From: Gemmatimonadota bacterium
Lineage (GTDB): Bacteria > Gemmatimonadota > Gemmatimonadetes > Longimicrobiales > Gaopeijiaceae
Assembly: GCA_007121455.1 (NCBI GenBank)
Contig: SKKN01000034.1
Location: 1 to 52,851, forward strand
Length of the DNA stretch: 52,851 nucleotides
Reading direction: 5' to 3'
A program made the position numbers and the translations under genes. Positions 6,361 to 29,111 of this stretch are shown one piece after another (the first letter of the stretch is position 1; each line of letters begins with the position of its first letter). The notes below the pieces were generated by a model. It made no database searches, was not told where the DNA came from, and was given only the letters and a program-made list of their open reading frames with translations.

Positions 6361-6545
6361 CGCGGGGGGGCGTCGGGCTCCTCCCGGGGATCCCGGTCCT
6401 TCTTACCAATGCATTACTGAAGTTGGTCGAGGACGCCGACCTTCGAGCTCGAATGGGCCAGGCCGGAGAGTCGTTTGCGCGGAGCCGCGGTTGGCCGGTC
6501 ATCATGAACACGGTGATCGACGCATACGAGGACGCGACATCCTGA
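6361..6545 (+). pseudogene. Glycosyltransferase (GT4-like) C-terminal fragment
   Basis: A frame ending with TGA at 6543-6545 reads NALLKLVEDADLRARMGQAG followed by a short helix, which is the standard C-terminal end of GT-B family 4 glycosyltransferases. Just before it VGLLPG resembles the GLLVPPGD donor-site loop, apparently with a small indel. Nothing of the preceding 300 residues remains. It is a stub with no plausible start. Confidence 0.55.
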
Positions 6546-6779
6546 CCGAGCCAATCACTCGGAAAGCTCCGGGCCGGAATGGAAACGCCGAACGTCGCCG
6601 GAGACGCTCAGCCGAAGATCACGCTGCTGAGCCACAACATCGAACCGGAAGCGACCGGTGTGATGAAGTCGTCTTCCACCCGCCACGGAAGGCGTTCACA
6701 GTACGCAGACACACTGGAAGGGCTGCCACCGGACTCGAGGCCCGAGACCCGGAAGCCCTGGCGCGCACGGTGCAGCTGC

Positions 6780-7090
6780 ATCATGCTGATTCCGATGGGT
6801 GCGCCCTGACGGACCGGCAGAAGGAGGGGCTGGACCTCTTCCGGTCGGTAGGGTGCGCCGCGTGCCACTCAGGCCCTCTCCTGGGAGGGACCACCTACCA
6901 GCGCTTCGGTATCACCGTCGACCACTGGACCGCCACCGGTTCGGAGGTGGTGGACGAGGGGCGCCGGGCCATCACCGGGGAGGAAGGAGACCGCTACGTC
7001 TTCCGGACGCCCATGCTCCGGAACGTGGCCCGCACGCATCTTCCACATGGCCGCATGGAAGCGCTCCGGTACGTCCGCCATGGCGATCGG
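6780..7090 (+). pseudogene. Di-haem cytochrome c peroxidase (MauG/CcpA family) fragment
   Basis: About 95 residues match the second haem domain of bacterial cytochrome c peroxidases: LTDRQKEGLDLF, the haem c attachment site GCAACHSGPLLGG, TGEEGDRYVFRTPMLRNVART. The first haem domain, the signal peptide and the terminal helix are absent. The flanking parts of the same open frame (6491-7429) are Arg/Pro-rich and unlike the family. The match degrades just after the RNVART motif, where PYFHDG would be expected. I read it as a decayed gene. Confidence 0.65.
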
Positions 7091-7575
7091 CTCCCGGATC
7101 GGTGGTCAGGAGCGATGCCCTCCTCCGGCTCATCCACCCGTCCCGGGCCAGCAACTCCACCGAGGGGGGCTGCACCCGACCCGCCCATCCGCGACGACCT
7201 CGGGCTCGGCAAGCTTAACGCCCAGGAGCCCAGCGCCGTCCAAGAAGTCGTCATCGATGGCCGCGCCTGTATCGCCCAAGCGATCGGCCTTGAGGGCGAC
7301 AGCTACCGCGCCTGTCCCCATCCCGCGAAGACCGTCCCTCCCCCACCCCGGCACCGACGGAGGTGCCCAACCCCGACCTCGGATCGAACACTCAACCCAG
7401 GCCCCGACAGGAACGGGACACGCTCGTAGAGATGCCTGGGTCATGCGGGGGGAAGGGACACCATCACCGAGTCTCCGGCCGATTGCTCGGCCAGATCCCC
7501 CGCACTACCTTGCCTGCGCCCCCAAGAGGGCGTTTGGATTCCCGATTCTTAACCTGTAGAAGAGGAGTGATCAGA
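7091..7575 (+). other. 485 bases without a recognisable gene
   Basis: Open frames here are Pro/Arg-rich and match nothing I know. The stretch probably holds further decayed sequence behind the peroxidase remnant plus the promoter of the downstream ModA-like gene. I saw no clear -35/-10 pair and no terminator. Confidence 0.4.
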
Positions 7576-8337
7576 ATGCCCACTTGGTCGAAAGTGACCG
7601 CACTCGCCGCTGCCTGCGGCCTGACGGTATCGTTTGCAGGCGCTGCCGTCCCTGCTGCCGAGATCACCGTGGCCGTGAGCGGCGGTCCGGTTCCGGATAT
7701 CGTGAGCACGCTCGTCCCGATGTTCGAGCGCGAGACCGGAAACCAGGTCGATCTCGTCATCCGGCGGGGAGACGCGCTGGCCGAAGACATCCGACAGGGC
7801 AGCGTGGACTTGGTCATCGCTGACGCGGGTACCGTGGATGGGTTCGTCGAGAGCGGCGACATCTCGGCCGCGAGCAACACCCCGGTGATGATTTCGAAGA
7901 TCGGGCTGGCGGTGAAGGCGGGCGCCCCGAAGCCCGACATCAGCACCGCGGAAAATTTGCGGGACGCGCTTCTTGCGGCGGAGAGTATTGGCTACAGCCG
8001 TTTCGCCAGTGGCCAGATCTTCCTCAGGTCCGTCGAGCGCCTCGGCCTCACCGAGGCCGTCACCGCCAAGGCGGTCATCCCGGAGACCGGACCCGTGGGC
8101 GCGGTCGTCGTGAGCGGAGAGGCTGAGATCGGCGTGCAACAGGTGGCCGAGTTGCTTGCCGTCCCCGGAATTGACCTGGTGGGCCCGTTGCTCGACGATT
8201 TTCAGGAGTTCCTGCCGACTTCGGCTGGAATTCCCACCGAAGCCAGGAACGCAGAGGCCGCCCAGGCCTTCATCGCCTTCCTGCGCTCGGCACCCGCCCG
8301 GGCTGTCCTCGAAGAGATGGGGATGGACGTGCCCTGA
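7576..8337 (+). CDS. ModA-like ABC-type substrate-binding protein (orphan)
   Basis: 253-residue periplasmic binding protein with a signal peptide (hydrophobic core ALAAACGLTVSFAGAA, likely cleavage after VPA). The fold and the C-terminal motif GVQQVAELLAVPGIDLVGPL are those of molybdate-binding ModA-type proteins (type 2 PBP). The start has GAGGAG 8 bases upstream. No modB or modC permease/ATPase gene is in the window, so it is an orphan or works with a distant transporter. The ligand-binding residues are not clear enough to decide between molybdate/tungstate and another oxyanion or small molecule. Confidence 0.75.
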   Translation: MPTWSKVTALAAACGLTVSFAGAAVPAAEITVAVSGGPVPDIVSTLVPMFERETGNQVDLVIRRGDALAEDIRQGSVDLVIADAGTVDGFVESGDISAASNTPVMISKIGLAVKAGAPKPDISTAENLRDALLAAESIGYSRFASGQIFLRSVERLGLTEAVTAKAVIPETGPVGAVVVSGEAEIGVQQVAELLAVPGIDLVGPLLDDFQEFLPTSAGIPTEARNAEAAQAFIAFLRSAPARAVLEEMGMDVP

Positions 8338-8662
8338 TCCCGGACCCCGACCGCGGCTTGGTCGGAGGGGGAGTGGACCCGGCGGTCTCAAACGGTGGAT
8401 CCAACCTTCGGTGGAGACCTCCTTCCTGCGCTCGTACCGCTGCACGGACCTGTAGTCCCAGGCGAATCGCGGGAGTGCCAACGGATTCCGCGCCCACGCC
8501 GAGGTGATGTGAACCTAGACCGCCCCGGATTCCCTCACACGGGTGTACCGGGTCTGCGAGGACGAAGGGGCACACCGACGATCGCCATGGAGGCCCACTC
8601 CACCGGGATGGAGTCCCCCTTCGGGATCCGTTCAAAAGAACGGCGTTGTCTGCACCGGATCC

Positions 8663-8743: not shown

Positions 8744-9445
8744 ATGACGCGCGTCAATTTTCGACTTGGAGCCCTTGCACTCCTCCTCTCCTTCAGCCTC
8801 ATGGCGTGTGGGGATCATGGCCCCACGCAGTCCGGTGACGCACTGTCCGAAGCGGACGCGGAGCCCATGATGGGGGCACTCACCCTCGCCGGAGGGATGG
8901 GATTCGTCCGGATGGAGTTCTCGGCCGATGACGTCTCGGTGATGAAGAAGACTCCCCCACGAGGCGAACCGGCTCTGCCCCCAAGTGGTCATCTCTCCCG
9001 AGATGGCAACGGATCCGCACCCCAGCAGTCGGAGGTGTCGTTGATCGGGATCGGACGCCCCCCCCTCTGCTTCCCCCTCCCGGACCGTCGCTCACGGGCG
9101 AGTCGCAGTTCCTCGACGACGGCTTCGTCCCTTCGGCCTCAAGTGCTGAAGAGAGAGCCTCCGTCGCTTCAGAGGAAGGGGCCTGGCCCAATGCCCACGC
9201 CGCGTGCGAGCCACTTCGGTTCGGAGTCAGCGAGGGCCAGACGAAGGACCGGAACCGCCGCCTCCGACCCCCCAGTTGCCGAGCCCAACACAGCCGTTCC
9301 GGGCAAATCCCGCCCTCCCCGCCCGGCGGATGGCCGAGCCGCGGGAGAACGACTCCCAGGCCTTTTCGTCCAGTGCTATGCGAAGGAGATCGGTGAGGGG
9401 CGGGCTGTCGATGCCAGGGTGGTGCGAGGCCCGCGTTTCAGCTGA
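8744..9445 (+). pseudogene. Lipoprotein gene, N-terminal part only
   Basis: The first 60 or so codons look real: a signal peptide with lipobox (LGALALLLSFSLMACGD) and an acidic, low-complexity mature start. After about codon 65 the frame becomes Arg/Pro/Ser-rich, and from about 9040 it reads antisense through the queG remnant B, so the 3' half cannot be original. I interpret it as a lipoprotein gene truncated at the junction with the duplicated queG segment. A short product may still be made, since the start region is intact. Confidence 0.5.
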
Positions 9446-9475
9446 GGCGCTTTCACCTGTCCGTGTTGTCATGCC
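9040..9475 (-). pseudogene. Remnant of the queG 3' part (copy B), frameshifted
   Basis: On the minus strand positions 9470-9280 read HHPGIDSPPLTDLLRIAL, SRGSAIRRAGRAGFARN and a GNWG motif, matching the C-terminal HEAT-like domain of queG. After a frame change 9200-9130 reads AWALGQAPSSEATEALSSAL, and a further shift restores AVVEELRLARERR. At least two frameshifts and the lack of everything upstream show that it is a dead fragment. It is closer in wording to copy A (1-440) than to the intact gene, for example SPPLTDLLR in both against GPSLVELLR in the intact one. Confidence 0.75.
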
Positions 9476-9591: not shown

Positions 9592-11004
9592 TCACTCCCC
9601 CGCCGCGAGGACCAGTTCCTTTCGGACCCATGCGTGCTCCTCTGTCGAGGCGAAAGCGGACAGTTGGAAGCGTGCCTCATCGGTCGCGGCTCGCCCCAGC
9701 GCCCACGCCGCGTGCCCCCGCACCAGGGGCTCCGGGTCGGAGAGGGCCTCGACGAGCACCTCCACGGGCTCGGCTGGCGGCTCCGGTTCCCCCGCCAGCC
9801 AGTTGCCCATGGCCACGCACACGTTCCGGGCGAAGCCAGCCCGACCCGCCCTCCGAATCGCTGAGCCGCGCGAGAACGCCTCCCACCCTGCTTCCGAGAG
9901 CGCCATGCGGAGGAGCTCGACCAGCGACGGCCCGTCCGTGCCGGGGTGGGGATCCCTGCGGCCGTCGGACATGCGCCCGCCCTCTCGCACCCGCTCGTTG
10001 TGACGAGACGTTTCCGCTGAAGCGCCTCCCTTCGCCAAGGCGCCCCCCGTCCCGACGCTTTCCGAACCCGGTCCCGCAGGACCGCTCGCCTCGGAACCGC
10101 TCTCTTCGGGACCTCTCCCACCGGCCCCCGCCGGACCGGCTGCCTCCACCCCCACCGGTCTCTCCCCCGGCCCCCGCGCCGCGTACCCCGGCTCCGCCGC
10201 CTCCTCGGCGAACCTCACGTTGAACGGACACACCTCCTGGCAGATGTCGCACCCGTAGACCCGGTTCCCCATGAGCGGCCGGAGCTCGCGCGGGATGGGG
10301 CCCCGGTTCTCGATCGTCAGGTAGGAGATGCAGCGGCGCGCTTCCATGACCGGGGCGCCGTCCTCGTCCCGGCCCAGTAGCGCTCCGGTGGGGCAGGCGT
10401 CGAGGCACCGCCGACAGGTCCCACACCGATCCTCCTCGAAGGGGGCATCCGGGGTGAGTGGCAGATCGAGGAGGAGGACGGCCAGGAAGAAGTACGAGCC
10501 TCGGCGAGGATGGATGAGCATGGTGTTCTTGCCGAACCACCCGATTCCGGCCCGGGCCGCGAGCTCCCGCTCCAGGATCGGGCCGGTGTCGACGTAGGCG
10601 CGCGCATCCACGGACCGCCCCGTCTCCTCCTCCAGCCACCGGTGGAGCTGCCGCAGCTTCCGCTTGACCACCCGGTGGTAGTCGCGACCCCGGGCGTAGC
10701 GCGCCACGACACCGAGAGAGGGGTCCTCCGGGACACCTTCGGGATCGACCTGATGGTACTCGTGACCCACGACCAGGACGGAGCGGACACTCTCGAGGGT
10801 GAGGGAGAGGTCCTCCCGGCGGGAGACGGCGCTGTCGTCGGCGAGGTATCCCATCGCCCCGTGTCTACCCTCGGCGAGCCAGGCCCGGTAGAAGCCGCCG
10901 TGCTCCGAGGCGTCGGGGCACGCGACGCCCGCGACTTCGAACCCGATCGATCGGGCTCGATCCTTCAGGCGCGCGGAGAGGGTGTGGGGATCGACTGGTT
11001 CCAT
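9592..11004 (-). CDS. queG: Epoxyqueuosine reductase QueG
   Basis: Cobalamin-dependent Fe-S enzyme that reduces epoxyqueuosine to queuosine in tRNA, the last step of Q synthesis. The 470-residue protein has the N-terminal catalytic domain with VDTGPILERELAARAGIGWF, two 4Fe-4S clusters (CGTCRRCLDACPTGAL and YGCDICQEVCPFN) and a C-terminal HEAT-like module (GHAAWALGR). Family members have about 380 residues; the excess is a Gly/Pro/Ser/Glu-rich linker of roughly 70 residues between the second cluster and the HEAT module. The ATG at 11004 was chosen since upstream frame sequence is antisense to nothing known and Arg-rich; an ATG at 11043 is possible. queE lies 5 kb away. Confidence 0.92.
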   Translation of the reverse strand: MEPVDPHTLSARLKDRARSIGFEVAGVACPDASEHGGFYRAWLAEGRHGAMGYLADDSAVSRREDLSLTLESVRSVLVVGHEYHQVDPEGVPEDPSLGVVARYARGRDYHRVVKRKLRQLHRWLEEETGRSVDARAYVDTGPILERELAARAGIGWFGKNTMLIHPRRGSYFFLAVLLLDLPLTPDAPFEEDRCGTCRRCLDACPTGALLGRDEDGAPVMEARRCISYLTIENRGPIPRELRPLMGNRVYGCDICQEVCPFNVRFAEEAAEPGYAARGPGERPVGVEAAGPAGAGGRGPEESGSEASGPAGPGSESVGTGGALAKGGASAETSRHNERVREGGRMSDGRRDPHPGTDGPSLVELLRMALSEAGWEAFSRGSAIRRAGRAGFARNVCVAMGNWLAGEPEPPAEPVEVLVEALSDPEPLVRGHAAWALGRAATDEARFQLSAFASTEEHAWVRKELVLAAGE

Positions 11005-11168
11005 CGGGGGACGGGTCCGTGATGAGGGGCGTCCGTTCCGCATCGTGGTGACGGACCGCCGGGAGGACGGCGGGGCGGCCACCTGCACCGCACCGGGTTC
11101 CGGACGGTACAACCCCGGCCGGGGGACATGGGTGCCGTGTCGCAGCCGCGAGCCGGGTTCGCGGAGGG

Positions 11169-25850: not shown

Positions 25851-26132
25851 TCACCCACCGGAGTCGTCGCGACGATCCGGTGGCGAGTCACCCCACCGCA
25901 TGAAGTCGAAAGGGCTGCGGCAGGCGTTGCACCAGTAGGTCGAAATCGATGCGTGCCCGCCGAAGGCGCTCATCAGCTCCGTGTCCGTTCCCTCGCAGAA
26001 GGGGCAGGGCGGCGCCTCGGGAAGTCCTCCCGGAGTCCTGGGCCGGTCCTCCCCCTTTCCCTTCGACTCCCCAAGGGAGGACCGGTCGGATCGGGGGGCG
26101 CTCATTCGCCGGTCGGGCCTCGAATCGCTCAT
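25851..26132 (-). CDS. Zinc-ribbon protein matching the PaaD C-terminus
   Basis: 93-residue protein with one four-cysteine zinc ribbon, CPFCEGTDTEL and YWCNACRSPFDF. This is the same ribbon that forms the C-terminal third of E. coli-type PaaD (CNAC-R-PFD). Here it is a separate gene, the last of the operon, overlapping the paaC stop by 4 bases; its first 40 residues are disordered and charged. Established: PaaD is needed for maturation of the phenylacetyl-CoA epoxidase. Inference: this protein and the DUF59 protein at 27234 together replace one full-length PaaD. Confidence 0.75.
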   Translation of the reverse strand: MSDSRPDRRMSAPRSDRSSLGESKGKGEDRPRTPGGLPEAPPCPFCEGTDTELMSAFGGHASISTYWCNACRSPFDFMRWGDSPPDRRDDSGG

Positions 26133-26923
26133 TCCACGAAGAGCGCGCGGTTCCGGTCTCCCCTCGCACGCTCGACCGCCTCCTCGTCCGGATGGCCCGG
26201 TCCGCGACCACGAACAGGATCCCAGTCGCCGGGGGGCTCCGTGTCCACCGGGACCTCCGCACCCACGAGCGACAAGAGCTCAGCCGTCTCGTCCCGGAAC
26301 CGTTCCCGAAGGAGCGTCGAGGCGGGAAGCACCCCCGCCTCCACGAGCCGTTCCTGAGCCGTGTCCAGGGGGAAGAAGGCGTCGAGCGTCGGAGGGAGCA
26401 TGCCCGCCACCTCGGCGGTGAGTCGCTCCCTCCCTTCGCCCCGGGAATCCGCCAGGCGCCGAAACCACGCGGACCCCAGGTCCCGGTGATACTCCTCTTC
26501 GGCGAGCATCTTGGCGACACGTCCGGAGAGGGCCTGATGCGCTCCCTCGCCGAGCCCCCGGAGGAGCACCGTCAGCGCTCCGTCCACCACGACGATGCCT
26601 GCGGTGACGGCCGCCCAGTCCGGGAACGGATGGTCGAGCGGGTCTGCGGAGCAATACTCGTGCGAGGAGCGTTGGTGCTCCAACTCGAGCGGGTCCTCGT
26701 CGAATTCCTTCAAGATCGAATAGACGAGCCGAGCGTGCCCCCACTCGTCCTGGGCCAGGGACGAGGCGGCGATCCCGGCCTCGATCGAAGGTGCGCCCAG
26801 GAGCCAGTCGCTGTAACGGATTCCGAGGAGGCGCTTCGAGTCCGCAATGGAGAGGATGAGGCGCCGGAACGCCTTTCGGGTGGACGGCTCCAGGTCGGCT
26901 GCGGTTTCGATCAGCTCGGTCAT
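26129..26923 (-). CDS. paaC: PaaC-like epoxidase subunit, ferritin-like
   Basis: 264-residue four-helix-bundle protein of the PaaA/PaaC superfamily. In enteric PaaC, the structural subunit, I recall metal ligands being lost; here two E-x-x-H-like motifs remain (SLAQDEWGHARLVY and LAEEEYHRDLG), so it could bind iron itself. The start overlaps the paaB stop by 4 bases (ATGA type). In the known complex PaaA and PaaC form the core that epoxidises the ring of phenylacetyl-CoA, with electrons from PaaE; no paaE is present here. Confidence 0.82.
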   Translation of the reverse strand: MTELIETAADLEPSTRKAFRRLILSIADSKRLLGIRYSDWLLGAPSIEAGIAASSLAQDEWGHARLVYSILKEFDEDPLELEHQRSSHEYCSADPLDHPFPDWAAVTAGIVVVDGALTVLLRGLGEGAHQALSGRVAKMLAEEEYHRDLGSAWFRRLADSRGEGRERLTAEVAGMLPPTLDAFFPLDTAQERLVEAGVLPASTLLRERFRDETAELLSLVGAEVPVDTEPPGDWDPVRGRGPGHPDEEAVERARGDRNRALFVE

Positions 26924-27159
26924 GCCCCTCCCTCCCTCCCGGCGGTCTCACGATTCGCGGCGAAGGGCCCGTCCTCCCGATTCACGGCGATGATCGCGCT
27001 TCGAGGAACGATGATCATCTCGAACCACCTCTCCTCGTCGTAGGTCTTCCACGCATAGACACGGGCGAGCTCGTCGTCGAGCGCCTCGAGGTACCCGATA
27101 TGCGCCAGGGCGTCACCCCGGCCTTTCCGCGCGAAGACGTCGTAGGTTCGTTCGAGCAT
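26920..27159 (-). CDS. paaB: PaaB-like epoxidase subunit
   Basis: 79-residue small subunit. TYDVFARKGRGDALAHIG and ARVYAWKTYDEERW correspond to the N-terminal and central parts of PaaB (about 95 residues), followed by MIIVPRSAI. The ATG at 27159 places the conserved Y-(D/E)-V-F strand at the N-terminus as in the family and has GGAGA upstream; an in-frame ATG at 27210 gives 96 residues and cannot be excluded. Established: PaaB bridges PaaAC heterodimers in the enteric complex. Confidence 0.8.
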   Translation of the reverse strand: MLERTYDVFARKGRGDALAHIGYLEALDDELARVYAWKTYDEERWFEMIIVPRSAIIAVNREDGPFAANRETAGREGGA

Positions 27160-27233
27160 GCTCTCCAGGTCTCCTGGCTCGTCCTTCGTTCCCCTGCGGA
27201 CGGGTCCCATCGGACGGACCCGACTCGACGACC

Positions 27234-27653
27234 TCAGACGCCCACGCCGAGCGTCCTCAGCTCCCTTCGTCCCTTCTCGGTGATCCGCTCCCGGGTCCAG
27301 GGCGGGTCCCAGACCACGCGGAGGTCGACGTCCCGGACCCAACGCTCCTGTAGGAGCCGGTCCCGGATGTCCTCCTGGATGAACTCCATGCACGGACAGG
27401 CGGTTGCGGTGAAGGTCAGATCCACCTGCACGACCCCATCCTCCACCGAGAGGTCGTAGACGAGCCCCAGGTCGACGACGGAGATGGGGAGCTCCGGATC
27501 CAGGACCTCCTGCAGACAGGCGCGCGCGGCGGACACCGGATCCTTCGGGGACTCCGACAGCGGCGCGGACCACAGGTCGCGGCCCCCGCTGGCATGGGAG
27601 ACCACATGCGCCGGAAGGGCGTCGCTCGAGGAGGGCGGCCCCACGACGGGCAT
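27234..27653 (-). CDS. paaD: PaaD-type DUF59 (MIP18) assembly protein, lacking zinc ribbon
   Basis: 139-residue protein with one DUF59/MIP18 domain: LDPELPISVVDLGLVYDL, VDLTFTATACPCMEF and DPPWTRERITEKGR. The conserved cysteine region (ACPCME) is intact. Full-length PaaD continues into a zinc ribbon; this one stops at the DUF59 end, and the ribbon is encoded at 25851-26132. The first 40 residues are poorly conserved and may include an overlong start; AGGAGG touches the ATG at 27653. It lies 53 bases after paaA. Confidence 0.82.
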   Translation of the reverse strand: MPVVGPPSSSDALPAHVVSHASGGRDLWSAPLSESPKDPVSAARACLQEVLDPELPISVVDLGLVYDLSVEDGVVQVDLTFTATACPCMEFIQEDIRDRLLQERWVRDVDLRVVWDPPWTRERITEKGRRELRTLGVGV

Positions 27654-28686: not shown

Positions 28687-28741
28687 CGAACGCTCGTTAG
28701 AATTTCTGAAAAATCGTAGGGCCGTGGGTGTGGCCTGTCAA
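28687..28741 (-). promoter_or_regulatory. paa operon promoter with PaaR-like operator
   Basis: On the minus strand: -35 TTGACA (28741-28736), 17-base spacer, -10 TACGAT (28718-28713), predicted start near 28706. Just downstream of it, 28700-28687, lies a dyad AACG-N2-CGTT within the frame C-N-AACG-N2-CGTT-N-G. As I recall, this is the published consensus for the TetR-family repressor PaaR of Thermus thermophilus. Its place over the start site suits repression relieved by an acyl-CoA. No tetR-type gene is in the window. Confidence 0.6.
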
Positions 28742-28811: not shown

Positions 28812-29111
28812 TCAGAGCCCGAGAGAGGAGCGGATCAACGGACTGATCCTCTCCGGCGTCCATGGGGGATCGAAGGTGAGCTGGACCTTCGCGCTCTCGA
28901 CGCCTTCCACCCCCAGAATCGCCTGCTCCGCGTTCTCGACGATCTGCTCCGCGACCGGACACATCGGTGAGGTGAGGGAGATGCGGGTGTCGACATGGCT
29001 CCCTTCGACCTCGATGTCGTAGACGAGACCGAGCACGACCAGATTGATCCCCAACTCCGGGTCCTTGACCGTCTTGAGGGCCTCCCGGACCTGCTTCTCC
29101 GTCACCGCCAT
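28812..29111 (-). CDS. DUF59/MIP18-family iron-sulfur assembly factor
   Basis: 99-residue single-domain protein: VKDPELGINLVVLGLVYDI, then LTSPMCPVAEQIVENAE with the conserved Cys, and LTFDPPWTPERIS. It is the typical size of SufT/PaaD-like scaffold or targeting factors for Fe-S or metal clusters. It is a paralogue of the DUF59 gene in the paa operon and lies just upstream of that operon on the same strand, but a GC palindrome and a separate promoter divide them. The ATG at 29111 matches the family's N-terminus; ATG at 29180 would add a low-complexity tail. Confidence 0.8.
   Translation of the reverse strand: MAVTEKQVREALKTVKDPELGINLVVLGLVYDIEVEGSHVDTRISLTSPMCPVAEQIVENAEQAILGVEGVESAKVQLTFDPPWTPERISPLIRSSLGL

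Follow-up and report, generated by a model that had tools for sequence, protein, structure and literature searches.

The two domains of PaaD are encoded as separate proteins, a DUF59-only protein and a PaaD-type zinc ribbon, in many Gemmatimonadota, some haloarchaea and Thermus, where they belong to a distinct branch of epoxidases. We studied this arrangement in a Gemmatimonadota contig (the window, the whole 52,851-nucleotide stretch of DNA analyzed). On the minus strand of the window, the gene order is paaA, a DUF59-only gene, paaB, paaC and a PaaD-type ribbon gene. PaaD is listed in reviews as a protein of unknown function (PMC4498308, PMC9493321). In our judgment, the two proteins are probably a two-part PaaD maturation factor that serves a distinct lineage of PaaA-PaaB-PaaC-type aryl-CoA epoxidases. 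The features of the operon and its upstream neighbor are:

28812..29111, minus strand: SufT-like DUF59 protein 5' of paaA (99 aa; PF01883, 78.9 bits)
28713..28741, minus strand: promoter-like site TTGACA-N17-TACGAT in the interval between the SufT-like gene and paaA
27707..28645, minus strand: PaaA, catalytic di-iron subunit (312 aa; PF05138, 207 bits)
27234..27653, minus strand: DUF59-only half of PaaD (139 aa; PF01883, 62.4 bits; motif TACPC)
26920..27210, minus strand: PaaB-like bridging subunit, divergent (96 aa; PF06243, 23.1 bits)
26129..26923, minus strand: PaaC (264 aa; PF05138, 131 bits; ligand positions KEHDEH)
25851..26132, minus strand: ribbon half of PaaD (93 aa; PF23451, 51.8 bits)

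Two halves of PaaD in one operon

The first-pass annotation had placed the DUF59 and ribbon genes correctly, and its description of them as separate PaaD halves in one operon is borne out by their complementary, non-overlapping matches to TIGR02159, the canonical PaaD model (146 positions, cut-off 108 bits). The DUF59 protein matches positions 1-88 (69.4 bits) and the ribbon protein matches positions 103-144 (35.4 bits), so there are two chains instead of the single chain over 108 bits that is a full-length fused PaaD. Two genes, about 1.1 kb, lie between the halves. ATGA overlaps are present at the PaaB/PaaC and PaaC/ribbon gene junctions, suggesting translational coupling. The PaaB-like gene is slightly under the PF06243 cut-off of 27 bits, and its position is kept in 116 loci.

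As had been claimed, the DUF59 protein stops before a ribbon: it ends at the end of the DUF59 domain, and no ribbon was found in it. Its PF01883 score is well over the cut-off of 23.5 bits and it carries the conserved Cys-Pro site. The 93-residue protein that closes the operon is likewise a member of the PaaD ribbon family, PF23451 Zn_ribbon_PaaD (E 6e-14, cut-off 27 bits). A better fit to another family had been named beforehand as evidence against this assignment, but the second-best Pfam family scores 18.9 bits, and these scores rule out membership in another family. For the ribbon protein, AlphaFold predicts a disordered N-terminus followed by a three-stranded zinc ribbon, CPFC...CNAC (strands 51-56, 63-68, and 73-78; pLDDT of the block 75-91).

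A second full-length PaaD elsewhere in the genome would also have spoken against the two-part reading. The assembly (3.53 Mb) is 95.6% complete, and a profile search of it found neither a second PaaD ribbon nor a full-length PaaD. PF23451 has a single match, the operon ribbon, which excludes a hidden full-length copy within the 95.6% of the genome covered. There are three PF01883 matches, namely the operon DUF59 protein, the SufT-like gene 5' of paaA, and a 389-residue frame on contig 51 that is probably Mrp/ApbC. In a tree for which SufT-like rows were the chosen outgroup, the operon DUF59 protein groups with the DUF59 domain of PaaD, apart from the SufT-like upstream gene.

The SufT-like gene probably has its own transcript. 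Its placement on the paaA transcript was considered and rejected because of the strong promoter-like site between the two genes. No other site of this kind lies within the 4 kb searched, and shuffled sequences would give 0.1. The feature is not general, as only 18 of 119 related loci have a site upstream of paaA with 9/12 or more matches. In the window's family, a second DUF59 gene was seen 5' of paaA in 79 complete loci, where two DUF59 genes lie side by side. None was seen there in the remaining 37 complete loci, of which some stop at a contig edge.

Distribution and the relation of unfused and fused forms

The first-pass annotation had proposed a genome survey for split and fused versions, and the survey gave 116 complete unfused loci and 30 fused loci. 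The PF23451 ribbon is present in 198 of the 298 Gemmatimonadota genomes and is of two kinds. The first kind, in families f4 and f5, gives strong matches in long frames, and DUF59 and ribbon are in one frame after paaC in all 30 loci read. The second kind, mainly in families f1, f2, f3, f7, f8, and f9, gives weaker matches, many of them in short frames. Complete loci, in which the contig extends past paaC, were collected from ribbons of the second kind and their relatives from genome contigs. All 116 (100 distinct) have the order paaA, DUF59, paaB, paaC, ribbon, and none is fused. Four loci have DUF59 and PaaC and lack a ribbon, and each of them stops at a contig end. In the 100 distinct loci, the DUF59 protein ends 0-5 residues past its last glycine. 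Among 13 Gemmatimonadota genomes checked (11 with two PF23451 matches and two more of family f4), none has both a fused PaaD and the separate pair. Both in haloarchaea and in this part of Gemmatimonadota, the unfused order is the usual one, and it is not the local oddity that it might seem from a single contig.

The closest named relatives of the operon are from MAGs called Gemmatimonadetes, Gemmatimonadales or Longimicrobiales. Four loci from MAGs titled Gammaproteobacteria (L091, L093, L096, L100) and one titled Rhodospirillaceae (L142) encode a PaaA about 80% identical to those of Gemmatimonadota operons. L100 is the same contig as that of a genome assigned to the window's family, and these MAGs are probably mislabelled or misbinned.

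Outside the phylum, the five-gene order is found on plasmids of the haloarchaea Haloterrigena, Haloarcula, Halalkalicoccus, Haladaptatus, Halobaculum, and a Natrialbaceae archaeon, and also on Thermus thermophilus pTF24b and two Agrobacterium plasmids. Haloferax volcanii likewise has a PF23451 match. The ribbon gene in these operons is often annotated as hypothetical or is unlisted. Unlisted ribbon genes lie right after paaC in Agrobacterium pAtCG920 (L161, about 8250-8444) and pAtLMG292b (L180, about 7250-7444), and in Haloterrigena turkmenica pHTUR01 (L159, about 9300-9473). On Thermus thermophilus pTF24b (L160, 8244-8626), two small genes lie between DUF59 and paaC; one of them is PaaB-like, and the other is PaaB-like by eye only. 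The 65-aa Thermus gene after DUF59 was considered as a ribbon and rejected, since it is PaaB-like and the Thermus ribbon comes after paaC. The chromosome of Thermus strain HB8 has a separate paaABCD operon (PMC6651687). For haloarchaea, the split is already catalogued through separate NCBIfam models, NF041868 (PaaD) and NF041869 (ribbon, named PaaE). A search of a partial literature library found no paper describing separate PaaD halves, whether in bacteria or in haloarchaea.

Fused and separate forms differ in their cysteines. An extra cysteine in the motif FGSTACK is present in 14/14 fused ribbons and 0/60 separate ribbons; the window ribbon has FGGHASIST, without the canonical-type extra cysteine, and its cysteine spacing is 3,22,3 versus 3,16,6,3 in fused ribbons. 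The DUF59 site has one cysteine in fused proteins (YSGCPA, 14/14) and two (CPC or CxxCP) in 50 of 55 separate proteins. Because these differences track the two clades, they amount to about one evolutionary contrast, not dozens. The window pair is therefore not a canonical PaaD simply cut in two, as its cysteine content differs and the accompanying PaaA and PaaC belong to another lineage.

PaaA and its paralogue PaaC were placed in one tree, in which each serves as root for the other. Fused PaaA formed one clade and fused PaaC formed another (100/100), both on long stems, and long branches meet at the root among unfused groups. The DUF59 tree also grouped the fused rows in one clade (99) beside haloarchaeal unfused rows (88). 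The fused clades lie outside or beside the unfused rows. One fusion fits these data and many fissions do not. We lean towards a single fusion in the ancestor of the canonical PaaABCDE clade, which would be a simpler reading than many fissions, and the unfused state may be ancestral. The word "split", if taken to mean a broken PaaD, may thus mislead, because all fused operons fall in one clade and the unfused arrangement could be the older.

Proposed function of the two proteins and putative metal sites of the unfused lineage

If the two proteins are a maturation factor, the DUF59 protein would handle iron, or a cluster, on behalf of the oxygenase. The conserved Cys-Pro site of this protein is similar to the one in SufT, a DUF59 relative described in two reports as serving Fe-S protein maturation (PMC4982691, PMC9045647). 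The ribbon would dock the DUF59 protein to the PaaAC body or hold its shape, and the two might associate non-covalently, which production from a single transcript would favor. PaaABCE requires PaaD in vivo and does without it in vitro (PMC4498308, PMC9493321), which fits a maturation role. The occurrence of the same two domains in one frame after paaC in the 30 fused loci indicates that the pair and the fused protein are interchangeable in this gene context. Among the first-pass claims, a two-part assembly factor remains the most economical reading, given separate genes in one operon and a ribbon of the PaaD family, but the statement that the arrangement shows that the domains can act in trans was too strong. 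Linkage, co-conservation and homology suggest that the halves may act together in trans, and two independent accessory proteins would also account for proximity and co-conservation taken by themselves.

In that second case, the DUF59 protein would be a general SufT-like Fe-S factor and the ribbon an accessory structural subunit of PaaABC, with no joint work. DUF59 proteins do also act alone as SufT, according to one report (PMC4982691), and paaB and paaC always intervene between the two genes, which are never adjacent. However, NF041868 gives the operon DUF59 protein 100.8 bits, a higher score than the 79 bits or so from SufT models, the genome has a SufT-like gene of its own, and sister families fuse the same two domains. 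We consider separate roles unlikely.

The di-iron ligands of PaaA, in E. coli numbering, are E42, E72, H75, D126, E155, and H158 (PMC4498308). All six are present in the window PaaA, and in the alignment they are kept in both fused and unfused types, single rows excepted. The substrate-lining residues K103 and F108 are also conserved. At the lysine-bridge positions (E. coli E49 and K68), the window PaaA has Y and I, and the bridge is missing across the unfused lineage: E49 is replaced by Y in 29/33 rows and K68 by I, V, A or T in 33/33. This absence agrees with a missing PaaE. The genome encodes no PaaE near the curated cut-off, the best match being 70.9 bits against 420.8.

These observations raise another reading of the ribbon, as an iron-binding, rubredoxin-like electron carrier that replaces the missing PaaE and is not half of an assembly factor. 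Besides the absence of PaaE from the genome, it would account for the name PaaE that NCBIfam gives the haloarchaeal ribbon, for two CxxC knuckles that could hold iron, and for the lack of a lysine bridge that has been proposed to participate in electron transfer from PaaE (PMC4498308). Yet canonical PaaD has this ribbon family joined to DUF59, with PaaE as another protein, and most of the listed fold neighbors of the ribbon are zinc ribbons of structural or nucleic-acid type, with weak E-values throughout. Moreover, haloarchaeal operons of the unfused type already adjoin a separate PaaE-like 2Fe-2S protein, which makes another electron donor plausible. An electron-carrying ribbon is, in our opinion, quite improbable.

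The last reading, a recent fission or damage of a full-length PaaD (frameshift, rearrangement or assembly error), deserves almost no credence: the arrangement is rare in well-studied proteobacteria, but it is kept in 100 distinct loci with a closely similar DUF59 end and is found in other phyla, and its halves are two genes apart, so the survey of loci rules out a sequencing error or fission.

PaaC of the unfused lineage has its own distinctive site. At the six positions of the PaaA ligands, the window PaaC has Lys followed by E, H, D, E, H, and KEHDEH is found in most of the 33 unfused PaaC rows (K at position 42 in 33, E72 in 31, H75 in 32, D/E126 in 33, E155 in 31, and H158 in 33). In fused PaaC, the same positions are mostly R/L/Q/D/variable/H. 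The E. coli PaaC is called structural. Class Ie ribonucleotide reductase R2, which is metal-free, likewise has Lys at a ligand place. The AlphaFold model of the window PaaC (pLDDT 94.6) was best matched by PaaC structures (VIA-align versus 1otk, Z 25.8, rmsd 2.5, 235 aligned), and among solved structures its sequence profile scored PaaA (69.8 bits) slightly above PaaC (64.9 bits). It is possible, though doubtful, that the unfused operon is an older aromatic-CoA epoxidase with a near-complete PaaC metal site and PaaD as two interacting proteins, and that the canonical branch fused PaaD, lost the PaaC site and gained the PaaA lysine bridge. If the unfused form is older, the two-part factor may serve a complex whose PaaC also binds metal.

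The canonical 1,2-phenylacetyl-CoA epoxidase is represented by the models TIGR02156-TIGR02160, and the window has no set of PaaA, PaaB, PaaC, and PaaE over their cut-offs. PaaA has 137 bits against 280 (TIGR02156), PaaC has 93.6 against 133 (TIGR02158), and PaaB has 21 against the canonical equivalog cut-off of 85. No window subunit reaches the cut-off of its canonical PaaA-D equivalog in NCBIfam, so the substrate and even the reaction could differ. An aryl-CoA substrate is likely. There is no PaaK match in the genome and the PaaK cut-off is reached in 0/58 genomes of the window's family, so the substrate may be other than phenylacetyl-CoA. With the PaaD domains separate in one lineage, each can be deleted, purified or swapped individually, and a comparison of lineages could reveal the role of PaaD, the purpose of the lysine bridge, and the change from a catalytic to a structural subunit.

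Comparison with known systems

In the canonical PaaABCDE system (E. coli type, and families f4 and f5 in Gemmatimonadota), PaaA, PaaB, PaaC, DUF59, and ribbon are homologous to those of the window, and PaaA shares the iron ligands, K103, and F108. The canonical PaaD, however, is one protein in an operon with the order A-B-C-fused PaaD. There the PaaC ligands are lost and the PaaA lysine bridge is present; the unfused lineage keeps five of the six PaaC ligand positions and lacks the bridge. One unfused operon of family f4 (L078) is followed by genes that by eye are enoyl-CoA hydratase-like and 3-hydroxyacyl-CoA dehydrogenase-like (6365-7297 and 10214-11071). These neighbors resemble PAA clusters, whereas none such was noticed in the window.

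SufT, like the operon DUF59 protein, has a lone DUF59 domain that bears a conserved Cys-Pro site, and the solved DUF59 structures 5ird, 2cu6, 3lno, and 1uwd are relatives. SufT and the operon protein differ in that the operon protein groups with the DUF59 domain of PaaD.

The haloarchaeal Paa operon has the same domain split and the same order of A-DUF59-B-C-ribbon, and for most haloarchaeal plasmid hits PaaA identity is 56-59% along most of the protein. In contrast, the window proteins are below the cut-offs of the haloarchaeal models (100.8 bits against 180 for DUF59 with NF041868, and 26.3 against 100 for the ribbon with NF041869). The cysteine motif of DUF59 is CPC in the window and CxxCP in haloarchaea. 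Unlike in the haloarchaeal operons, no ferredoxin or GNAT neighbors were noticed in the examined part of the window.
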